The translations under genes were made by a program, and so were the position numbers. Shown in pieces: positions 421 to 63,945 of a stretch of DNA of 64,000 nt. Origin of the DNA: Saccoglossus kowalevskii (lineage: Eukaryota; Hemichordata; Enteropneusta; Harrimaniidae). How positions within the stretch are numbered: position 1 is the first letter of the stretch; every line of letters starts with the position of its first letter. The stretch is from assembly GCF_000003605.2 (NCBI RefSeq), contig NW_003139318.1, positions 233,972-297,971 of the forward strand, given 5' to 3'. The notes under the pieces are model-generated. The model did not search any database and was not told the origin of the DNA. It worked only from the letters and a program-made list of their open reading frames with translations.

Positions 421-2139
421 TTTTCCAAAATTTTCTCAGTCATGTGATCTGGTTTCTCAATGAAATGAGTCACTCTGAGAAATATTCTGTGTAATTTCAT
501 GCATTTTGTATTAAAATACACCAGATTCAGGATGAATTTTAGGATAACAAATTTGCAAATACCGTTGTATACAAGTCTAAAACATAATAGTTCAGCAGCC
601 CCCTAAGGTAAATTAAGTGGGGTCATACTATGGGAAATGTGACAATAGCGTTAAGACTGTTACCATCGAACTTGACATTATTGTAATACGAATGATTTAA
701 TGATAAGAATAATTAAAAAAATAATTGAAGAATTTTATTATTAATATATTAATAATAATAACGGCCATAATCCAGTGATATATAAGCTAAATAAAAATTA
801 TATTTTCTAATTAATACATAGATTCAGGAATAGATGTCAGAGTCACGAACATATCTTGCCCTAAAGTGGTTATTGTCTTATCTTAGTTTTAAATCTCTGT
901 CATTTGTTCAAATGTTCAGCTGTTAATGCAACTTGGCAACATTGCTGTGTCTGCGTTCAACTTCCTCACGCATGGTGAGCTTAATGCTCACAACATACTA
1001 CAAAATGATCATCAAAAGACATTATCGTTACCGATTCCACCGTTGTAATATTATCCGCAGCAAGCAAGAATGATCAAGGCTGATTCAACCCAGGGTATTT
1101 GAAGAGCATTAAAATGCAACGAGTTCAAGCCATCCAATAGCGTGTTATATTTTAACCACAATAGCATTAGCCAAATGCTAATGGAAAAGGCCAGATAGTG
1201 GTAGATTTAACCTTCTGAGTATATACTCAAAAAAAAAATCTTTATATGTAAATTAAGAATAAATACCATGCAAGTTGTGTTGAAATTAACCACATGTAAG
1301 TGACATGCAAGCTAACTAGATTATGTAGATTTTGTAAATATGCAAATTAGTACAGTTCTACACATGGCAATGTGTCTGTTCTTATTCATGTATTGTACTG
1401 CTTTACGACTCGGCTTCCACGCAGGTAACCACGACTTGCATGCAAGATTAGAATGCCAGCCTTCAAGGTATGAAATTTAATGGCATCTCCCGAAAAGTTT
1501 GAAGCTATTTATCAACGAAACAAATTTTGAAATTGATATCAGTGACGAATTTAAACGACGACAAAAAAATGTTGCTAAGTGCATTTAATTATTATCTAAG
1601 AAAAAGAAAAAACTATGCATTCTAAATTCTCACTAACTCAAATAAGAACAAGTGGGACCTTGTTTCCACTGTTTTACGTCATTCAAACAAAATCGTTAAA
1701 AAGACAACAAAAATGCATAACAGAGTACATAATTTCACTTGTACTATGACCAATACAATACAATACACAATTTTTTTCAAGCAAAAATATCATTTCATAC
1801 AGTGGAACACGAAATGTGTGTTTAAGTGTATAAGATACATGATCTCTGTCGGCAATTATATAAATTCAAATCTATGTTTACAATAATTTTCAAACAAACG
1901 CACAATATGCATGGAGAGTTTTTGATTAACAAGTCATTGTAAATAATTGAAGTGACTTGGCAATTTTTTAAATCATACAAAGCCACTGAAATTATGCTTA
2001 AAAGTAATGATTTGAAAAAATTTAACTTTGATCCAGAGAAACACATTGAAATCTGCAGACATGGTGAAGTATTACTATTTAGGCCACTGTTACATCTAAA
2101 CTGGCCCCCTTCAGCCATATTTAATCAAACTAAAAAGTA
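421..2139. other. Unannotated AT-rich stretch
   Basis: No gene, RNA or clear repeat was recognised. Frames are short and interrupted. A 98-codon minus frame (1822-2118) and the start of a plus frame at 1952 have no recognisable family and partly run into the adjacent array. Confidence 0.5.
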
Positions 2140-3358
2140 CCGGTATTACACTGGACTGACATCGAGTGTTTCTATTATGGACCAATATTACACTGGACTG
2201 ACATGGAGTGTCTCCATTATGGACCAGTACTACACTAGACTGACATGGAGTGTGTCCATTATGGACCAGTACTACACTGGACTGACACGGAGTGTTTCCA
2301 TTATGGACCAGTACTACACTGGACTGACATGGAGTGTGTCCATTATGGATAAGTACTACACTGGACTGACACGGAGTGTTTCCATTATGGACCAGTACTA
2401 CACTGGACTGACATGGAGTGTCTTCATTATGGACCAGTAAAACACTGGACTGACATGGAGTGTTTCCATTATGGACCAGTATTACACTGGACTGACATGG
2501 AGTGTGTCCATTATGGACAAGTACTACACTGGACTGATACGGAGTGTTTCCATTATGGACCAGTACTACACTGGACTGACATGGAGTGTTTCCATTATGG
2601 ACCAGTACTATACTGGACTGACATGGAGTGTGTCCATTATGGACAAGTACTACACTGGACTGACACAGAGTGTTTCCATTATGGACCAGTACTACACTGG
2701 ACTGACATGGAGTGTCTTCATTATGGACCAGTAAAACACTGGACTGACATGGAGTGTCTCCATTATGGACCAGTACTACACTGGACTGACATGGAGTGTC
2801 TTCATTATGGACCAGTAAAACACTGGACTGACATGGAGTGTCTCCATTATGGACCAGTATTACACTGGACTGACATGGAGTGTCTCCATTATAGACCAGT
2901 ATTACACTGGTCTGACATGTAGTGTCTCCATTATAGACCAGTATTACACTGGTCTGACATGTAGTGTCTCCATTATAGACCAGTATTACACTGGTCTGAC
3001 ATGTAGTGTCTCCATTATGGACCAGTATTACACTGGTCTGACATGTAGTGTCTCCATTATAGACCAGTATTACACTGGTCTGACATGTAGTGTCTCCATT
3101 ATGGACCAGTATTACACTGGTCTGACATGTAGTGTCTCCATTATGGACCAGTACTACACTGGACTGACATGGAGTGTCTCCATTATGTACCGGTAATACA
3201 CTGGACTGACATGGAGTGTCTCCATTATGGACCAGTATTACACTGGACTGACATGGAGTGTCTCCATTATGTACCAGTATTACACTGGACTGACATGGAG
3301 TGTCTCCATTATGGACCAGTATTACACTGGACTGAGATGGAGTGCTCCTATTATACAT
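2111..3358 (-). other. 415-codon open frame through the 42-bp array; probably not a gene
   Basis: The longest open frame in the window. The predicted product is almost entirely a 14-residue repeat around VHNGDTPCQSSV, with a unique start of about eight residues and a short unique tail. There is no signal peptide, membrane segment or recognised domain. A repeat unit whose length is a multiple of three and lacks a stop in one frame gives such a frame automatically. Plus-strand frames through the same array are broken by stops in some units, whereas this one is open in every unit; that is weak evidence for constraint. Most likely a shadow of the minisatellite. A Cys- and Asn-rich repeat protein cannot be excluded. 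Confidence 0.15.
2140..3350. repeat. 42-bp minisatellite, about 29 units, two hairpins per unit
   Basis: Tandem array of a 42-bp unit. Each unit holds two short inverted repeats: ATGGAGTGTCTCCAT (6-bp arms, 3-nt loop) and CCAGTATTACACTGG (5-bp arms, 5-nt loop), separated by 6-nt spacers (15+6+15+6). Unit variants are not random. Units near 2890-3150 carry ATGTAG and TCTGAC in place of ATGGAG and ACTGAC, and a multi-unit pattern recurs between about 2290-2450 and 2470-2740. Because 42 is a multiple of three, frames run open through the array on both strands. Confidence 0.95.
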
Positions 3359-7957: not shown

Positions 7958-8715
7958 GACTGGGTGAATATACAAAATATATCTATTCTGTGATTGGGTA
8001 AATAAATATAACTGTTTTGTGATTGTGTGGATACAGTACACCTGCTTTGTGATTGAGTGAATACATCTACTTTGTGATTGGATGAATACACCTGCTTTGT
8101 GATTGGCTAAATATTATTGTTTTGTGATTGGATGAATACACCTACTTTGTGATTGGCTAAATATTATTGTTTTGTGATTGGATGAATACACCTACTTTGT
8201 GATTGGATGAATACACCTGCTTTGTGATTGGCTAAATATTATTGTTTTGTGATTAGGTGAATACACCTACATTGTGATTGAGTGAATTCACTTGCTTTGT
8301 GATTGGATGAATACACCTGTTTTGTGATTGGATCAATACATCTGCTTTGTGATTGGATGAATACACCTACTTTGTGATTGGATGAATACACCTGCTTTGT
8401 GATTGGCTAAATATTATTGTTTTGTGATTGGATGAATACACCTGCTTTGTGATTAGATGAATACACCTACTTTGTGATTGGATGAATACACCTACTTTGT
8501 GATTGGATGAATACACCTACTTTGTGATTGGATGAATACACCTACTTTGTGATTGGATGAATACAACTGCTTTGTGATTGGCTAAATATTATTGTTTTGT
8601 GATTAGGTGAATACACCTACTTTGTGATTAGGTGAATACACCTGCTTTGTGATTAGGTGAATACACCTGCTTTGTGATTAGATAAATATATCTTCTTTGT
8701 GATTGGGTAAATTCT
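7958..8715. repeat. 25-bp minisatellite, about 30 units, each with an inverted CCAAT
   Basis: Direct repeats of a 25-bp unit around TTTGTGATTGGATGAATACA plus CCTAC. Nearly every unit carries GATTGG, an inverted CCAAT core. A variant block with GCTAAATATTATTG recurs at about 8104, 8155, 8230, 8402 and 8579, so multi-unit blocks have been duplicated. The left edge fades through degenerate units from about 7958. Confidence 0.92.
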
Positions 8716-18244: not shown

Positions 18245-19336
18245 AGCATTATGTCAATCATTTTAGTGACGGGTGATTATGGAGTATTCCTTGTGCAGAG
18301 CATTTAAACTGGCCAATGAAAATAAAGCGACCATATTTTATTTCAATTACAAAATTACAAAATCTTATAGGGTGTGATGTTCACATAAATCTGAATGGGT
18401 AATGTGATATTACTAGCATGACAGCTAGGCATTAGTGCAATGTTGTAAAGTGACTGGATTATGGGGGATTCTCTGTGCTAAGCATTCAAATTGGCCAATA
18501 AACATATTTGAGTATCTTATTTCCAGAGACCAATTATGAATTCGCATAGTGTGCAACATTTGCATAAATCTGAATGGGTAATGAGATATTACTAGCATCA
18601 CAGCTAGGCATTAGTGGAATGTTGTAAAGTGACTGGACTATGGGAGATTTCCTGTGCTAAGCATTAAAATTGGCCAATAAATATATTTGAGTATCTTATT
18701 TCCAGAGACCAATTATGAATTTGCATAGTGTGCGACATTTGCATAAATCTGAATGGGTAATGAGATATTACTAGCATCACAGCTAGGCATTAGTGGATTG
18801 TTGTAAAGTGACTGTATTATGAGGGATTTCCTGTGCTAAGCATTCAAATTGGCCAATAAACATATTTGAATATCTTATTTCCAGAGACTAATTATGAATT
18901 CGCATAGTGTGCGACATTTGCATAAATCTGAATGGGTAATGAGATATTACTAGCATCACATCTAGGCATTAGTGGAATGTTGTAAAGTGACTGACTTATG
19001 GGGGATTCTCTGTGCTAAGCATTCAAATTGGCCAATAAACACATTTGAGTATCTTATTTCCAGAGACCAATTATGAATTCGCATAGTGTGCAACATTTGC
19101 ATAAATCTGAATGGGTAATGAGATATTACTAGCATCACAGCTAGGCATTAGTGGAATGTTGTAAAGTGACTGCATTATGGGGGATTCCCTGTGCTAAGCA
19201 TTCAAATTGGCCAATAAACATATTTGAGTATCTTATTTCCAGAGACCAATTATGAATTCGCATAGTGTGCGACATTTGCATAAATCTGAATGGGTAATGA
19301 GATATTACTAGCATCACAGCTAGGCATTAGTGGAAT
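18245..19336. repeat. 179-bp satellite-like tandem array, about six units
   Basis: The landmark CTAGCATCACAGCTAGGCAT recurs at 18413, 18592, 18771, 18950, 19129 and 19308, so the period is exactly 179 bp. The five inner units are highly alike. The first (18245-18412) is much more diverged, and the last is cut off after about 30 bp. Most units hold the perfect palindrome ATTGGCCAAT and the phrase ATAAATCTGAATGGGTAATG. There is no open frame of note. Confidence 0.96.
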
Positions 19337-20396
19337 GGCGTATGTAGGATTCCACATAGATTCTTGAATTGTTCTACTTTATGATCACAATGGAATAAAA
19401 CTAACTCAGATAAGCTTTAAAATGGCAAGTCAACCAACCATCTCGAAAAAAACCTCTATCATTCCTTCCTATCAATATATACATCCTTGTATTTGCACGT
19501 TTTGGTTCTTGATCACAGAAAGGTTGATCAGGTCAGGTAAATGGCAATCCCATGTATGAGTTTGGAAATGCCACCTCAATTCATTGGTTCAGTAGTGAGA
19601 CTCAGATGTTCGGTTTCATCGTCTCCAGGGAAACAAGTCCACAGCGGTAGAAAGCATAGAAATCTACTACTATGAATCATTTGTACTTTTTTTTCGCAAT
19701 GCCAACTGAATAACAATTTTTTTGTCTGTATTTTTAGAGAAAATATCTATAATATATAAAATAGGACGGTTAGAAACTAAAATTAGCATAGTTTATCCAG
19801 CTAAATGACGGCAATTATGAATGTTGTTCACAAAATATTATAATTCTCTCAAAAATATTTGGTTGAAAATTAAATAATAAACAAAATGATGAAAAAATTT
19901 GGTGTGTGTGTGTGGGGGGGGGGGGGGGGGCAGGCAAAACGGACAAGTTGGGCCACATTTATCTATTTATTTGTGTTCACATGTATGCCCACAGCTCAAG
20001 TATTTTGTGTGTTTTTTCAATTGGTTAAGGGTTATCGAATCCCCAAATGATAAAATTTCAATAATTTTCTTAAATATACTGCTGATGCACATAAAATCAT
20101 GAAACGCAATCATTGCTTAAAAAGTAATGCAAAATCTAAATAAAATATATGAAAAAAAATAATTTCTGTCAGAACTTGTTTGTCAGTGAAAGGTACAATG
20201 ATATGACTCATCGCATCAAATGACCAAAAAAATCATGTTTTTTGAGTAAAAACTCTGAAATCCAACAGTTTGGCAGAATTAATTTTATACCAAATTATAA
20301 CCACGCATAAATTTGACAATTAAAATGAAATAAAAAAAAATCAGCAGAAAGCAACAATTTGTATCGGAAATGTACAAATATGCGCAGCAATGCCAA
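19337..20396. other. Unannotated stretch with a GT/poly-G tract
   Basis: No gene was recognised. A (GT)n run leads into 17 consecutive G residues (about 19901-19930). A 67-codon frame crossing it is an artefact of the low-complexity run. Confidence 0.6.
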
Positions 20397-21346: not shown

Positions 21347-22225
21347 TTACCCCGGTAAGCGCAATCGATTTTCATACCAAAATTTTGGAGCAAAATTTTG
21401 AAAATATTCATAAATTATTCAATTTTTTGCTAATTTTTTAACCAGATGAACTAAAATTTGCTATTGCTTACAGGTTTTAAACTAAAATTTTAAAAATTTT
21501 AAAATTGGAAAAATGTTTTCGCAATGTAAGTGCGAAAAGCAAATATGCTACAGAAATAAGGTTGTTAAGTGGTTCGGAAAAATTTGTAAAAGTATATTCT
21601 GTAAGAGAATTTTTCAAACTTAACTGAAAGAGGAATAAAATTACTTGAACTGAAAAAAATCCAAACGTAGTACATTATCTAATAATAATTTAAAAGCAGT
21701 TTGTGATGAGAAAGAATCAAATTATAGAGGGAAAAAAAATCATGCTGATATTAGAGCAATTGGCATCGAATAGTTTTTAAATGCATACAGGAAGGGCTTG
21801 GAACCCTCTGCAAGTCATTTGAAAAGGCAGCCGTACTGCTGAAAACTGCACATTGGGGTTATTGTCACACGAGACAAATTGGCAATTTTTTAACACTTTT
21901 TAATGATACGAATGAGACAAAATCTTTGCGTCTGAGATAACAATTATAGTCTGAGTACTCCAGCAGTTATTGAAAAAAATCACACTGTTGAGTTGAATTG
22001 AAAATAGTATGAGTCTTTTAGTAAGGATTGAATGCTTAAAGAATTCTATAATAAATTGTATTTTGTTATTTAGTAATTGGTACACATAGCATCAATAACA
22101 AAACATATGTATAAGAAATTTCATTGTATGAACTAAATATAGTCACGCACGCTGTTCTATCGTTCACTAAATATATATTTGAATATTTTTTTTTCATTCA
22201 TACGAAGTCCACAATTCACGCCAAG
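21347..22225. other. Unannotated AT-rich stretch
   Basis: No gene or clear repeat was recognised. A 61-codon minus frame at 21900-22085 has no support. Confidence 0.45.
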
Positions 22226-23165
22226 ACCACCCCTTAAGCTTCCTCTCATTTCCTTCAACACAACCCCCTAAGTTACATTTTATTGCACAGAACCAGGCAT
22301 CTAATGTACAATGCACTTCACCACAACCCCCTAAGTTACCTATCATTACACACTACCAGGTATCTAATGTATATTGTACTTTAACACAACCCCCTAAGTT
22401 TCCTATCATTACACACTACCAGGTATCTAATGTATATTGTACTTTAACACAACCCCCTAAGTTACCTATCATTACACACTACCAGGTATCTAATGTATAT
22501 TTACTTCAACACAACCCCCTAAGTTTCCTATCATTACACACTACCAGGTATCTAATGTATATTGTACTTTAACATAACCCCCTAAGTTTCCTATCATTAC
22601 ACACTACCAGTATCTAATGTATATTGTACTTTAACACAAACCCCTAAGTTTCCTATCATTACACACTACCAGGTATCTAATGTATATTGTACTTTAACAC
22701 AACCCCCTAAGTTTCCTATCATAACACACTACCAGTATCTAATGTATATTTACTTCAACACAACCCCCTAAGTTACCTATCATTACACACTACCAGTATC
22801 TAATGTATATTGTACTTTAACACAACCCCCTAAGTTACCTATCATTACACACTTCCAGGTATCTAATGTATATTTACTTCAACACAACCCCCTAAGTTTC
22901 CTATCATTACACACTACCAGTATCTAATGTATATTGTACTTTAACACAACCCCCTAAGTTTCCTGTCATTACACACTACCAGTATCTAATGTATATTTAC
23001 TTCAACACAAACCCTTAAATTACCTATCATTACACACTACCAGTATCTAATGTATATTGCATTTCAACACAACCCCCTAAGTTACCTATCATTACACACT
23101 TCCAGGTATGTAATGTATATTGTACTTTAACACAACCCCCCTAAGATACCTATTATTGCACACAG
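22226..23165. repeat. ~63-bp minisatellite, about 15 units
   Basis: Tandem units built on AACACAACCCCCTAAGTT, CCTATCATTACACACTACCAG and TATCTAATGTATATTGTACT. The period is 63 bp, with shortened units of about 57-59 bp caused by loss of a few bases around TGTACTTTA or the G of CAGG. The C-rich block makes it stand out from the AT-rich surroundings. There is no coherent open frame. Confidence 0.95.
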
Positions 23166-23605
23166 ATACAAGTAATCCAATACCTGAATTGGATCACTAA
23201 ACTATGCATCAGGTGTCCATTACAATTCCTCAATCAGACCCTCCCACAGAAGTTCCTGTTACATTCCCACTAGCATTCCTCATCTGGACCCTGGAAGTAC
23301 CCCCCTTAAATTCCCACTAGTTTTCTCAACAAGACCCTCCAAGTTCCCCATTATATTCCCCTACTATATTGCAACAAATATCCCTTAAATGGGCCCTCCA
23401 AGTTCCCTGTTATATTGCAAATATTATTTCTCAACAAGACTCTCCAAGTTCCTCATTATATTCCTCCACAATATGCCCTGTTATATTCCAACTAGTATTC
23501 CTCAACTGGACCTTCAAAGTTCTTCATTATATATTCCTGCAACAAAAACTCAACTGGATTCGTTTGTTACAATTATACAAAAATCTCCCCTCTAATAATC
23601 AATAA
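23166..23605. repeat. Degenerate pyrimidine-rich repeat
   Basis: Loose recurrence of CTCAACAAGACCCTCCAAGTT, TATATTCC and CCCACTAG blocks at about 60-70 bp spacing. It continues the C-rich character of the preceding array and may be an older relative of it. Frames of 68-78 codons here (23369-23605) are side effects. Confidence 0.6.
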
Positions 23606-23884
23606 TATTCATCTCTCAGTAATATTCAATCTATGATATACAGCGATAAATTTGAGAAATAAACACAAAAAAAGTTATTCATTTGGAACACATCAAGTAT
23701 ACCCCTGGAAAATTACTACAGAAGAAAATGAGATAGTTGTGTTTTTCATGTTTCTCTGAAATCCAATTTGAATCATCAATCCATCTCATGCATCCTAAAT
23801 ATGAGAACAAGTAATTCAATTTGGAAATATTCGTTAACTGTACGTCTGATGTAACTAATTCTATTACCTTTACGTCATGCAATA

Positions 23885-24076
23885 TTTGGTCTAGTATATC
23901 ACCATGGCGATAACTATCATCCGCAAACCATGGAAACAGAATATAAAATCTATAGGAGAGATGTCGCCCTAATAAGCATGACCTATGACCCAAGCAATGC
24001 AAACTAAAAATACATCTTTAGATGGAGGAAGCATTTCTCTTATTACTAATTATAATGTCTGGTTGCCGTGGCAACA
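23885..24076. promoter_or_regulatory. Possible regulatory cluster: DR1 plus dyads
   Basis: A 190-bp stretch with TCACCATGGCGAT (about 23900), ACCATGGAAAC, a perfect nuclear-receptor DR1 TGACCTATGACCC (23979-23991; the complement is two AGGTCA-type half sites one base apart) and the dyad GTTGCCGTGGCAAC (24062-24075). The density of near-consensus sites suggests an enhancer or promoter. No transcript start is visible. The 107-codon minus frame at 23679-24002 overlaps it and has no recognisable domain. Confidence 0.3.

Positions 24077-27811: not shown

Positions 27812-27868
<57 letters not shown>
27812..27868. repeat. (TA)n microsatellite beside the ribozyme
   Basis: About 28 uninterrupted TA units. 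On the minus strand it lies about 30 nt downstream of the hammerhead domain, so it may belong to the same retroelement end. Confidence 0.98.
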
Positions 27869-27869
<1 letters not shown>

Positions 27870-27898
27870 GTGGACAGAGAAATTAAGACACGACTACA

Positions 27899-27976
27899 TG
27901 AGTAAAGTTCACTCTACAGTACTGTTTCGTAAGGTACATGGAGTACCTCACTCATCAGGAGTTAAGACTTTATTAA
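27899..27976 (-). ncRNA. Type I hammerhead self-cleaving ribozyme
   Basis: Read on the minus strand, every core element is present in order. Stem I strand ending ACUC; CUGAUGA (27952-27958); stem II GUGAGGUAC, loop UCCAU, GUACCUUAC (nine pairs, one G-U, with the conserved G-C closing pair); GAAA (27925-27928); a four-pair stem III ACAG/CUGU closed by a UA loop. Then comes the cleavage nucleotide A after GU (predicted cut between 27915 and 27914), and GAGU re-pairs with ACUC to form stem I. Short stem III is typical of hammerheads in Penelope-like retroelements and metazoan retrozymes, which often need dimers to cut efficiently. No reverse transcriptase is visible nearby, so this is probably a solo terminal repeat. 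Confidence 0.92.
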
Positions 27977-28394
27977 ATAAACCACCGAAACAGACTACGT
28001 TATAAGCGCTACAGATTTGCATAACAATGGAGTGTGTTTACGATATTAAAACTAGTTGTTGCATAGCAACGATTTGGCTCTGTGAAAGAAAAAAGCTCAT
28101 TTCTTTTATTTAAACTACAGTAATGTGGTTGGAAAATTATAATATATTTCTCTCTAATACATAAGTTGCAACATTTGCTTGAAGTATTGTATGGTGCAGC
28201 ACGCGATAACACTCCATTTGATGTCGTAATCGATGTTATTGTCTTTTAATGACCAAGCGTATTTACTGAGCTCTGTTGCGTTTCTCAATGATTGGTTGCG
28301 TAGCAATGCAGTGTGGTTTCTGTATATATATATATAGCTTTTTTTGTGATATACTGGTAAACATACCCTCAGTCTTATTATCTGGTAAACTTGT
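27977..28394. other. Possible remains of the ribozyme-bearing retroelement
   Basis: ATGGAGTGTGTTTACGATAT (28028) and AACACTCCAT (about 28208-28217) form an inverted pair, and TTG(T/G)TTGC(A/G)TAGCAA occurs twice (about 28049 and 28291). This may be terminal-repeat material upstream of the hammerhead in transcription order, or a separate foldback. No domain was recognised in the 67- and 88-codon minus frames here. Confidence 0.3.
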
Positions 28395-57199: not shown

Positions 57200-57960
57200 T
57201 CCATTTAATTTATCAACCATCATTGGCTTTATCAATAATTTATTGATTGTATTAACCATTTACTATTATTATTTTTATTAATATTATTACTATTTTTACT
57301 ATTTTTAACTTTATCAACCAGTATACCTTTATCAATAATTTATCAATTGTATTAACCATTTACTATTATTATTTTTAATAATATTATTACTTTTTAACTT
57401 TATCAACCAGTATACCTTTATCAATAATTTATCAATTGTATTAACCATTTAGTTACTATTATTATTTTTAATAATATTATTACTATTTTTAACTTCATCA
57501 ACCAGTATACCTTTATCAATAATTTATCAATTGTATTAACCATTTACTATTATTATTTTTATTAATATTATTACTATTTTTAACTTTATCAACCAGTATA
57601 CCTTTATCAATAATTTATTGATTGTATTAACCATTTACTATTATTATTTTTAATAATATTATTACTATTTTTAACTTCATCAACCAGTATACCTTTATCA
57701 ATAATTTATCAATTGTATTAACCATTTACTATTATTATTTTTATTAATATTATTACTATTTTTTAACTTTATCAACCAGTATACCTTTATCAATAATTTA
57801 TTGATTGTATTAACCATTTACTATTATTATTTTTAATAATATTATTACTATTTTTAACTTTATCAACCAGTATACCTTTATCAATAATTTATTAATTTTA
57901 TTTACTATTTAATAATATTTTTATTTTTAACTAATTATCATCAACTTTATTCATTTACTA
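57200..57960. repeat. ~91-bp tandem repeat, about eight units, dimeric structure
   Basis: CAACCAGTATACCTTTATCA recurs at 57315, 57404, 57499, 57590, 57681, 57773 and 57864. Units alternate between two types in the middle of the array (ATCAATTG with ATTAATATT, then ATTGATTG with AATAATATT and CTTCATC), giving a ~182-bp dimer. It is extremely AT-rich. Decayed remnants continue to about 58050. Confidence 0.95.
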
Positions 57961-63179: not shown

Positions 63180-63945
63180 TATCTGTAAAGTTAGGGGAAC
63201 TTGCACACCAGTATCTAATTTGCATATTGAACTGAATCTAACTACATGTAGTAGAATTAGGGGGAGCATATACATGATGGATTCTGCATTGAGAATAAAT
63301 ATGAATATGAGAGGAGTTAGGGGGTTTAAATATAAGTATCAATTTCACTTTAAAGATAAATCTGAATATGAGTGGAGTTAGGGAGCTTGAATATAAATAT
63401 CGATTACAATTTAAAGATAAAGCTGAATATGAGTGGAGTTAGGGGGCTTGAATATTAATATCAATTTTACTTTAAAAATAAATCTGAATATGAGTGGAGT
63501 TAGGGGGCTTGAATATAAATATCGATTACAATTTAAAGATAAAGCTGAATATGAGTGGAGTTAGGGGGCTTAAATATTAATATTGATTTTACATTAAAGA
63601 TAAATCTGAATATGAGTAGACTTAGAGGGCTTAAATGTGAGTATCAGTTTCACTTTAAAGCTAAATCTGAATATGAATGGAGTTAGGGAGCTTAAATATT
63701 AATATTGATTTCACATTAAAGATAAATCTGAATATGAGTAAACTTACGGGGCTTAAATGCAAGTATCAATTTCTCTTTAAAGCTAAATCCGAATATGAGT
63801 GGAGTTAGGAGCCTTAAAAACAAGTATCAATTTCACTTTAAAGCTAAATAAGTATGAGTGGAGTTAGGGAGCTTACATGTGAGCCTCCATTTTGTATTAA
63901 TTTAAATGTGACTAAGAGTGGACTAAGGGGCTTACTACAAAGCCA
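63180..63945. repeat. 61-bp minisatellite, about 12 units
   Basis: Units of GAATATGAGTGGAGTTAGGG, GGCTTGAATATAAATATC and a TTTAAAGATAAATCT block. GAGTTAGGG recurs every 60-62 bp from 63313 on, and the first units are degenerate. It reaches almost to the window edge. A dimer pattern shows at 63375-63560, where units with ATCGATTACAATTTAAAGAT alternate with ATCAATTTTACTTTAAAAAT. Confidence 0.93.

Follow-up and report, generated by a model that had tools for sequence, protein, structure and literature searches.

A probable minimal type I hammerhead in the 3′ end of a decayed Penelope-like element

What is the hammerhead-like sequence on the minus strand of this locus, and what kind of element carries it? 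The window analyzed here is the whole stretch of 64,000 nucleotides, in which an earlier note had reported a complete type I hammerhead ribozyme belonging either to a solo terminal repeat or to a small non-coding retrozyme. Our results favor a dead, 5′-truncated copy of a Penelope-like element (PLE) lying in a TA repeat, with a conserved minimal type I hammerhead in its 3′ untranslated region (UTR) or terminal repeat. We assign this reading a probability of roughly 0.86.

Anatomy of the motif

The hammerhead scheme consists of the CUGANGA and GAA boxes, three helices, the A15.1-U16.1 pair and the residue H17, with the ends of the molecule open in stem I. The window motif has all of these type I features, and its parts are as follows.

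27903..27972, minus strand: minimal type I hammerhead motif, whole (direct reading and descriptor; its match to model R1, introduced below, is by construction)
27972-27967 and 27962-27959, minus strand: 5′ side of stem I, UAAAGU and ACUC (direct reading)
27952..27958, minus strand: catalytic core box CUGAUGA (direct reading)
27929..27951, minus strand: stem II, 9 pairs and loop UCCAU (direct reading)
27926..27928, minus strand: core box GAA (direct reading)
27916..27925, minus strand: stem III, self-complementary ACAGUACUGU (reading; dimer interface in the two-molecule fold)
27915, minus strand: predicted cleavage after A (H17, site GUA; from the hammerhead scheme)
27914-27911 and 27908-27903, minus strand: 3′ side of stem I, GAGU and ACUUUA, with GA between them (direct reading)

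By this anatomy, and not by a covariance-model match, minus-strand 27972-27903 is confirmed as a type I hammerhead motif; its activity is a prediction. The earlier note had placed such a motif on the minus strand, and its parts are indeed all there in order, as the descriptor match and direct reading agree, with its coordinates and its cleavage base, A27915, unchanged. The nine pairs it had counted in stem II were read again, one of them being G-U (strands GUGAGGUAC at 27951-27943 and GUACCUUAC at 27937-27929, on either side of UCCAU). Its four-pair stem III with a two-base loop had to be abandoned, because the standard energy model does not allow a loop of that size. The stem I that it described as re-forming does pair, but not continuously: helices of 4 and 6 bp flank an internal loop, CUUA/GA. 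Of 22 copies belonging to the same subfamily, the window copy counted in, 20 have an undamaged CUGAUGA box.

The element that carries it

The PLE context was searched in the same 572-Mb genome. At least 43 matches to a 201-nt query around the motif were found there (the best 40 of 147 candidates were scored). Twenty stretches around the best of these matches were fetched, the window's own locus among them, and the window was compared with them by blastn. The longest matches begin at query base q1677 (window 28324), and the shared part stops at CCACG (27869), before (TA)n. The features at this locus are given below.

27869..28324, minus strand: 3′ end of a 5′-truncated PLE (blastn against 20 loci of the same genome)
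28052..28324, minus strand: decayed coding remnant, C-terminus of a GIY-YIG-type endonuclease (protein matches)
27812..27868, no strand: (AT)28.5 microsatellite at the 3′ end of the element (TRF)
28323..28336, no strand: (TA)7 at the 5′ truncation point (sequence reading)

Segment 27869..28324 is made up of the endonuclease remnant and the 3′ UTR/terminal-repeat region, and we infer that this copy was inserted inside a TA repeat. The reading frame is broken within the remnant; the stop codon of the family, TAG, lies at 28054-28052, and the hammerhead follows about 80 nt downstream of it. Two protein matches, C3045:262052-262186 and C3045:262026-262298, correspond to window positions 28081-28215 and 28055-28327, the second with four internal stops. 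The earlier note's pointer to PLE terminal repeats was thus well aimed, the motif being in the 3′ untranslated end of a PLE. Its two specific proposals fared differently. A solo terminal repeat was rejected, since about 270 nt of decayed endonuclease C-terminus stand upstream of the motif, and this coding remnant also speaks against a small non-coding retrozyme, as does coding sequence upstream of the motif in the relatives.

In locus L013, a C-terminus of 215 aa is open upstream of the motif; it contains a Cys-rich stretch as well as YVGLT, FKTRYRNH and NATEL motifs. By motif, we take this C-terminus to be the GIY-YIG endonuclease of PLEs. VGL, FKTRYRN and NATEL are unchanged across six copies; P0001 reads VYQA..YVGLT..FKTRYRNH..NATEL, and five relatives have the same motifs with some changes. 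Protein matches in the genome number at least 146 (the best 150 of 169 candidates were scored), many of them 45-70% identical. Neither the endonuclease pieces nor the RT pieces were recognized by Pfam. PF01541, scanned against the genome, gave 24 places, none overlapping the PLE protein-match places, and searches of PDB sequences with both pieces returned nothing meaningful. In L038, an RT fragment with YRDD lies upstream in the same copy and strand, in a different frame, and a relative, L066, holds an RT-like frame of 419 aa with YRDD-type sequence and no Pfam or PDB-sequence match. YRDD in these two loci is presumably the PLE-type RT motif.

Residues 75-89 of P0001 read C-x-C-x5-C-x5-C, and three of the four Cys are present in all six copies. 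A Cys-rich domain between RT and endonuclease is the mark of Neptune-like elements in the relevant passages of PMC3846280. The Cys-rich stretch found here has that position, and the window PLE is probably Neptune-like. No 5′ pLTR with a hammerhead came out of the RT search, the tail search or the 1.8 kb examined upstream in one copy; the fetched sequences showed neither an intact element of full length nor a direct tandem.

Copies of the family are truncated at many points at the 5′ side. An apparent clustering of these points near the stop codon was dropped, because the window copy has a small indel that displaces the alignment starts. A script detected a TA repeat behind the 3′ end of 21 of 23 aligned segments (L024 is TA by eye, and the segment of L023 meets N), and one precedes the 5′ end in four of the 23 (the window copy, L012, L018 and L019), as well as, by eye, in several of 12 short-copy flanks. 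Three of the 20 loci (L011, L023 and L026) have a second terminal copy, inverted and head-to-head. Two forms of 3′ end occur, a short one and one extended by a tail of about 65 nt; the tail was seen in 7 of 23 segments. A tail search gave at least 45 genome matches (the best 40 of 64 candidates were scored), and those listed stop either near query base 48 (45-52) or at its end, 116 (98-116). Inverted terminal repeats, an optional tail, 5′ truncation and AT-rich targets are thus all seen in this family. For PLEs, inverted pLTRs, palindromic junctions, an optional tail and AT-rich targets are in print (in parts of PMC3846280 and PMC11167929).

Two further observations concern the ends of copies. 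In L026, L049 and L058, the PLE ends within or beside another repeat (TTCTATTTTTATAGAAGAACCTTCCCAAATAAAAG...), in some cases next to a TA run; this repeat is perhaps a favored PLE target. In L038 (G000:C3767), at about position 2267, the family match stops after the last base of stem II and before GAA, an odd 3′ break point.

Conservation in two subfamilies and alternative readings

A second subfamily was observed behind related coding sequences. We hand-picked 18 of the at least 146 protein matches (46-70% identical and reaching the C-terminal end of the protein), fetched their 3′ flanks and searched these with R1, a model built on 15 first-subfamily copies, one of which is the window copy. 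Seventeen flanks matched at E <=10, the weakest at 0.053; the other, L049, is a first-subfamily sequence cut before the motif. The boxes are undamaged in 15 of the 18 flanks and damaged in L050 and L053. In the second form, stem II is GUGAGGUAC-UU-GUACCUUAC, stem III is ACAGUGCUGU, the site is mostly GUC, and stem I has 6 bp and lacks the outer helix. Its motif occupies the same place behind an endonuclease-type frame.

Both forms were also found by exact patterns, which overlook decayed copies. The pattern CTGATGAGN{10,30}CGAAACN{2,8}GTA has 37 matches in the genome versus 4 in a reversed control, and by reading 33 of the 37 are the two subfamily forms. For CTGATGAGN{8,30}CGAAACN{2,12}GTC, there are 59 genome matches versus 0 in the control: by reading, 38 belong to the second form and 11 to the first, with 10 others. 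Ten of those 11 were already in the GTA-pattern set and matched here through GAGTC of stem I.

Between the subfamilies, identity is 85% in the 44-nt catalytic part, 48% in the preceding 79-nt spacer and 67% in the last 69 nt of coding sequence, as calculated from 3 first-subfamily rows against 14, without L049, the damaged L050 and L053, and L061, which the alignment lacked, and with L038, L044, L063 and L064 unused. With L050, L053, L061 and L044 added, the values are 78-79% for the catalytic part, 47% for the spacer and 66% for the coding end. The higher identity of the catalytic part points to selection on the motif, with gene conversion as another possible cause.

In 31 distinct copies, 96.7% of the base-pair cells are paired. 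Among these copies, none of the 17 pairs is altered on both sides, so compensatory changes were not observed; four pairs of stem III and two of stem II are invariant, and shuffled alignments do as well in covariation score (469 of 500 were as high). Because the copies are too alike, covariation speaks neither for nor against the motif. Stem III is ACAGUACUGU in 15 of the 31 copies and ACAGUGCUGU in 16, and it is self-complementary in all 31, in the case of ACAGUGCUGU through G-U pairs; these stem III counts are biased, as the copies were gathered with a pattern fixing most of its letters. In two other genome copies, C4613 and C1549, the self-complementarity of stem III is broken.

These data bear on the reading of a truly inherited but inert motif, an ordinary stretch of the PLE 3′ UTR that persists solely through the youth of the copies. 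Such inertness would agree with the missing compensatory changes, with the misfolding of the monomer (see below) and with the fact that 42 of 43 among the matches listed are at least 90% identical, in a list that favors close copies. It accounts poorly for a catalytic part 78-85% identical next to a spacer at 47-48%, behind endonuclease-type sequence at 46-70% in the 18 chosen matches, and for two stem III variants that are both self-complementary, the bias of that count and the two broken copies notwithstanding. We therefore regard an inert motif as unlikely and retain the conserved hammerhead of a dead PLE copy.

Metazoan retrozymes, as described in passages of PMC7229834, consist of short non-coding repeats arranged in tandem, about 150-450 bp in size, and have type I hammerheads within AT-rich repeats, with canonical loop contacts. 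A retrozyme of this kind, bearing a canonical type I hammerhead in its short tandem repeat and giving a small circular RNA, would share with our locus the type I topology and the dispersed copies of an AT-rich repeat measuring a few hundred bp. Neither the non-coding tandem arrangement nor the canonical loop contacts were seen here, the window holds no tandem array bearing the motif, and the copies run upstream into endonuclease-type and RT-type coding sequence. Moreover, model R1 finds a single motif in the window and in each of 18 of 20 fetched loci, the other two having inverted pairs. A retrozyme is therefore very improbable.

How often would such a motif arise by chance? Both strands of the window were searched with a descriptor requiring the boxes and at least 4 pairs in stem II, 3 in stem III and 4 in stem I. 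The present site was the sole match, and 1500 first-order Markov windows gave 8. With at least 7 bp in stem II and 4 bp in stem III, there was none in the 1500, in agreement with the earlier note, which had called a chance occurrence very unlikely.

The covariance models gave another result. Rfam at the gathering score left the window without a match; at E up to 10, 901 bases produced 11 rows of other families, mostly AT repeat, and no hammerhead, and the relatives had no hammerhead match either. The earlier note had proposed the Rfam type I model as a check and had named a missing hit as grounds for rejecting its own claim, and a missing hit is what was obtained. It is worth stressing that another candidate, the hammerhead-like element L079:343-382 with a perfect 6-bp stem I, was likewise missed by Rfam at E <=10, and for this reason we do not treat the miss as decisive. 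In our judgment, the Rfam test is weak for minimal hammerhead forms. A chance resemblance or low-complexity artefact, in line as it is with the missing Rfam hit, is hardly credible, as no simulated window held a motif as strong and the motif recurs in the genome behind one and the same coding sequence, at a constant position.

Predicted dimer and published counterparts

When folded alone, a 96-nt RNA of the window copy has as its best structure stem II and a competing 3′ hairpin, not the hammerhead (z = -1.36; 19 of 200 shuffles were as stable). In the monomer, stem III could reach 3 bp with a 4-base loop. As a perfect palindrome of 10 bases, ACAGUACUGU is suited to dimer formation. The unconstrained fold of two molecules of the window RNA is indeed a double hammerhead, at -51.0 kcal/mol versus -40.8 kcal/mol for two monomers. 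Of 15 distinct copies, 14 have the double hammerhead as their optimum, if at least 8 of 10 pairs in stem III and at least 3 of 4 in the inner part of stem I are required; the fold of L020 is without stem I. None of 300 dinucleotide shuffles had a dimer energy as low, while the energy gained on dimerization is not unusual (56 of 300 shuffles gained as much). For the second subfamily, of which one copy was folded, the double hammerhead is not the optimum (-38.8 versus -45.5 for another dimer fold). Its stem III self-pairs with the help of G-U pairs (UA to UG in the center, 10 of 10 pairs).

On the strength of these models, cleavage as a dimer is likely to be the mode of action. When two motifs meet, in tandem in one transcript or on two transcripts, their stem III strands would pair over 10 bp, and the paired stem III would complete two hammerheads, each cutting after A/C17. 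Element transcripts would in this way be trimmed at the terminal repeat. The window copy itself could be active only if transcribed and paired with another copy.

It is also conceivable, albeit doubtful, that the self-complementary stem III is primarily an RNA dimerization signal that joins two transcripts, switching on cleavage and juxtaposing two templates. If true, this might account for the inverted terminal copies that stand head-to-head in PLEs.

Dimer cleavage, the mode of action that we prefer, has precedents. According to passages of PMC7761336, minimal type I hammerheads of PLEs were reported in 2014 (Cervera and de la Pena), their cleavage as dimers is in print (Lunse et al. 2017), and this 2020 review still called their role unknown. 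The motifs it describes resemble ours in being type I and in the terminal repeat, with a weak or missing stem III and a proposed dimer cleavage. Compared with them by description only, the window motif differs in a stem III of 4 + 2 + 4 letters that is a full 10-base palindrome in a long stem II of 9 bp and, in one subfamily, in an additional outer helix of stem I beyond an internal loop; these traits may not be unusual. Passages of PMC6155905 and PMC1564403 agree with the picture of PLE-borne hammerheads, and the window motif is a PLE-borne minimal type I hammerhead of a kind already in print. Literature searches, unspecific without a species, did not find the window PLE family under a name. 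The locus adds a clear example of two identical PLE RNAs whose joint energy optimum is predicted to be a double hammerhead. The role of PLE hammerheads thereby becomes testable on a small construct; in other respects, the locus agrees with what is in print.

Two published systems are close. In PAc, a Poseidon element of Anolis carolinensis, the hammerhead lies by the pLTR, targets are AT-rich, and two adjacent RT start sites give the tail, according to passages of PMC11167929. The PAc hammerhead overlaps the start of the ORF and needs a protein to cleave, whereas ours was seen behind the stop codon, no ORF start having been found. The same paper states that cleavage is not required for insertion of the Anolis PLE in vitro. 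This is in line with our short-copy flanks: none of the 12 (one N-masked) starts at the base after A27915, the nearest starts preceding the cleaved A by 2 bases or following it by 4. The 12 places were chosen for starts near the motif, so their clustering there has no meaning. Cleaved RNA as a template was dropped, as no short-copy flank starts at the cleavage site.

The second system comprises the EN-containing Penelope families of Adineta vaga, which share with ours inverted pLTRs, palindromic head-to-head junctions, an optional 3′ tail and 5′ truncations (sections of PMC3846280). Their tail has 31 bp versus about 65 nt here, and they are Penelope/Poseidon families, while ours has a Cys-rich linker as in Neptune. 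The main text of PMC3846280 does not contain the words hammerhead or ribozyme.

Several other motifs and repeats were noticed. In L068 (G000:C4783:217190-217290), inverted terminal fragments stand head-to-head as a nearly perfect palindrome, a few bases from the predicted cleavage site. The motif at L079:343-382 (G000:C3217:4242-4281) is a different one, with stem I GAGGUC/GACCUC of 6 bp, stem II of 3 bp and a palindromic stem III, ACCGGU. At <=2 mismatches, it has seven places in the genome and 0 in the control, the others being C3217:8551 and 11716, C2261:778142, C2900:1805, C504:137854 and C3427:64288. Three of the seven lie on one 12-kb contig (C3217), on the same strand and 3-4 kb apart, and the motif could belong to another PLE family in tandem or to a retrozyme. 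At G000:C569:2759-2788 and C4632:1123-1152, we found CTGATGAGCTCGT(A/G)GAGAGCGAAACC(T/G)GTC, with a stem II of 4 bp and a 5-base loop; these we assume to resemble canonical metazoan hammerheads.

Within the window, a 62-bp tandem repeat of 14.6 copies occupies 22253-23163, and GC skew reaches -0.44 over 22001-24000, strong and local. Five more tandem arrays were observed at 2139-3354 (42 bp x 29), 8037-8706 (25 bp x 27), 18384-19337 (179 bp x 5.3), 57204-57930 (91/183 bp) and 63295-63875 (61 bp x 9.6).
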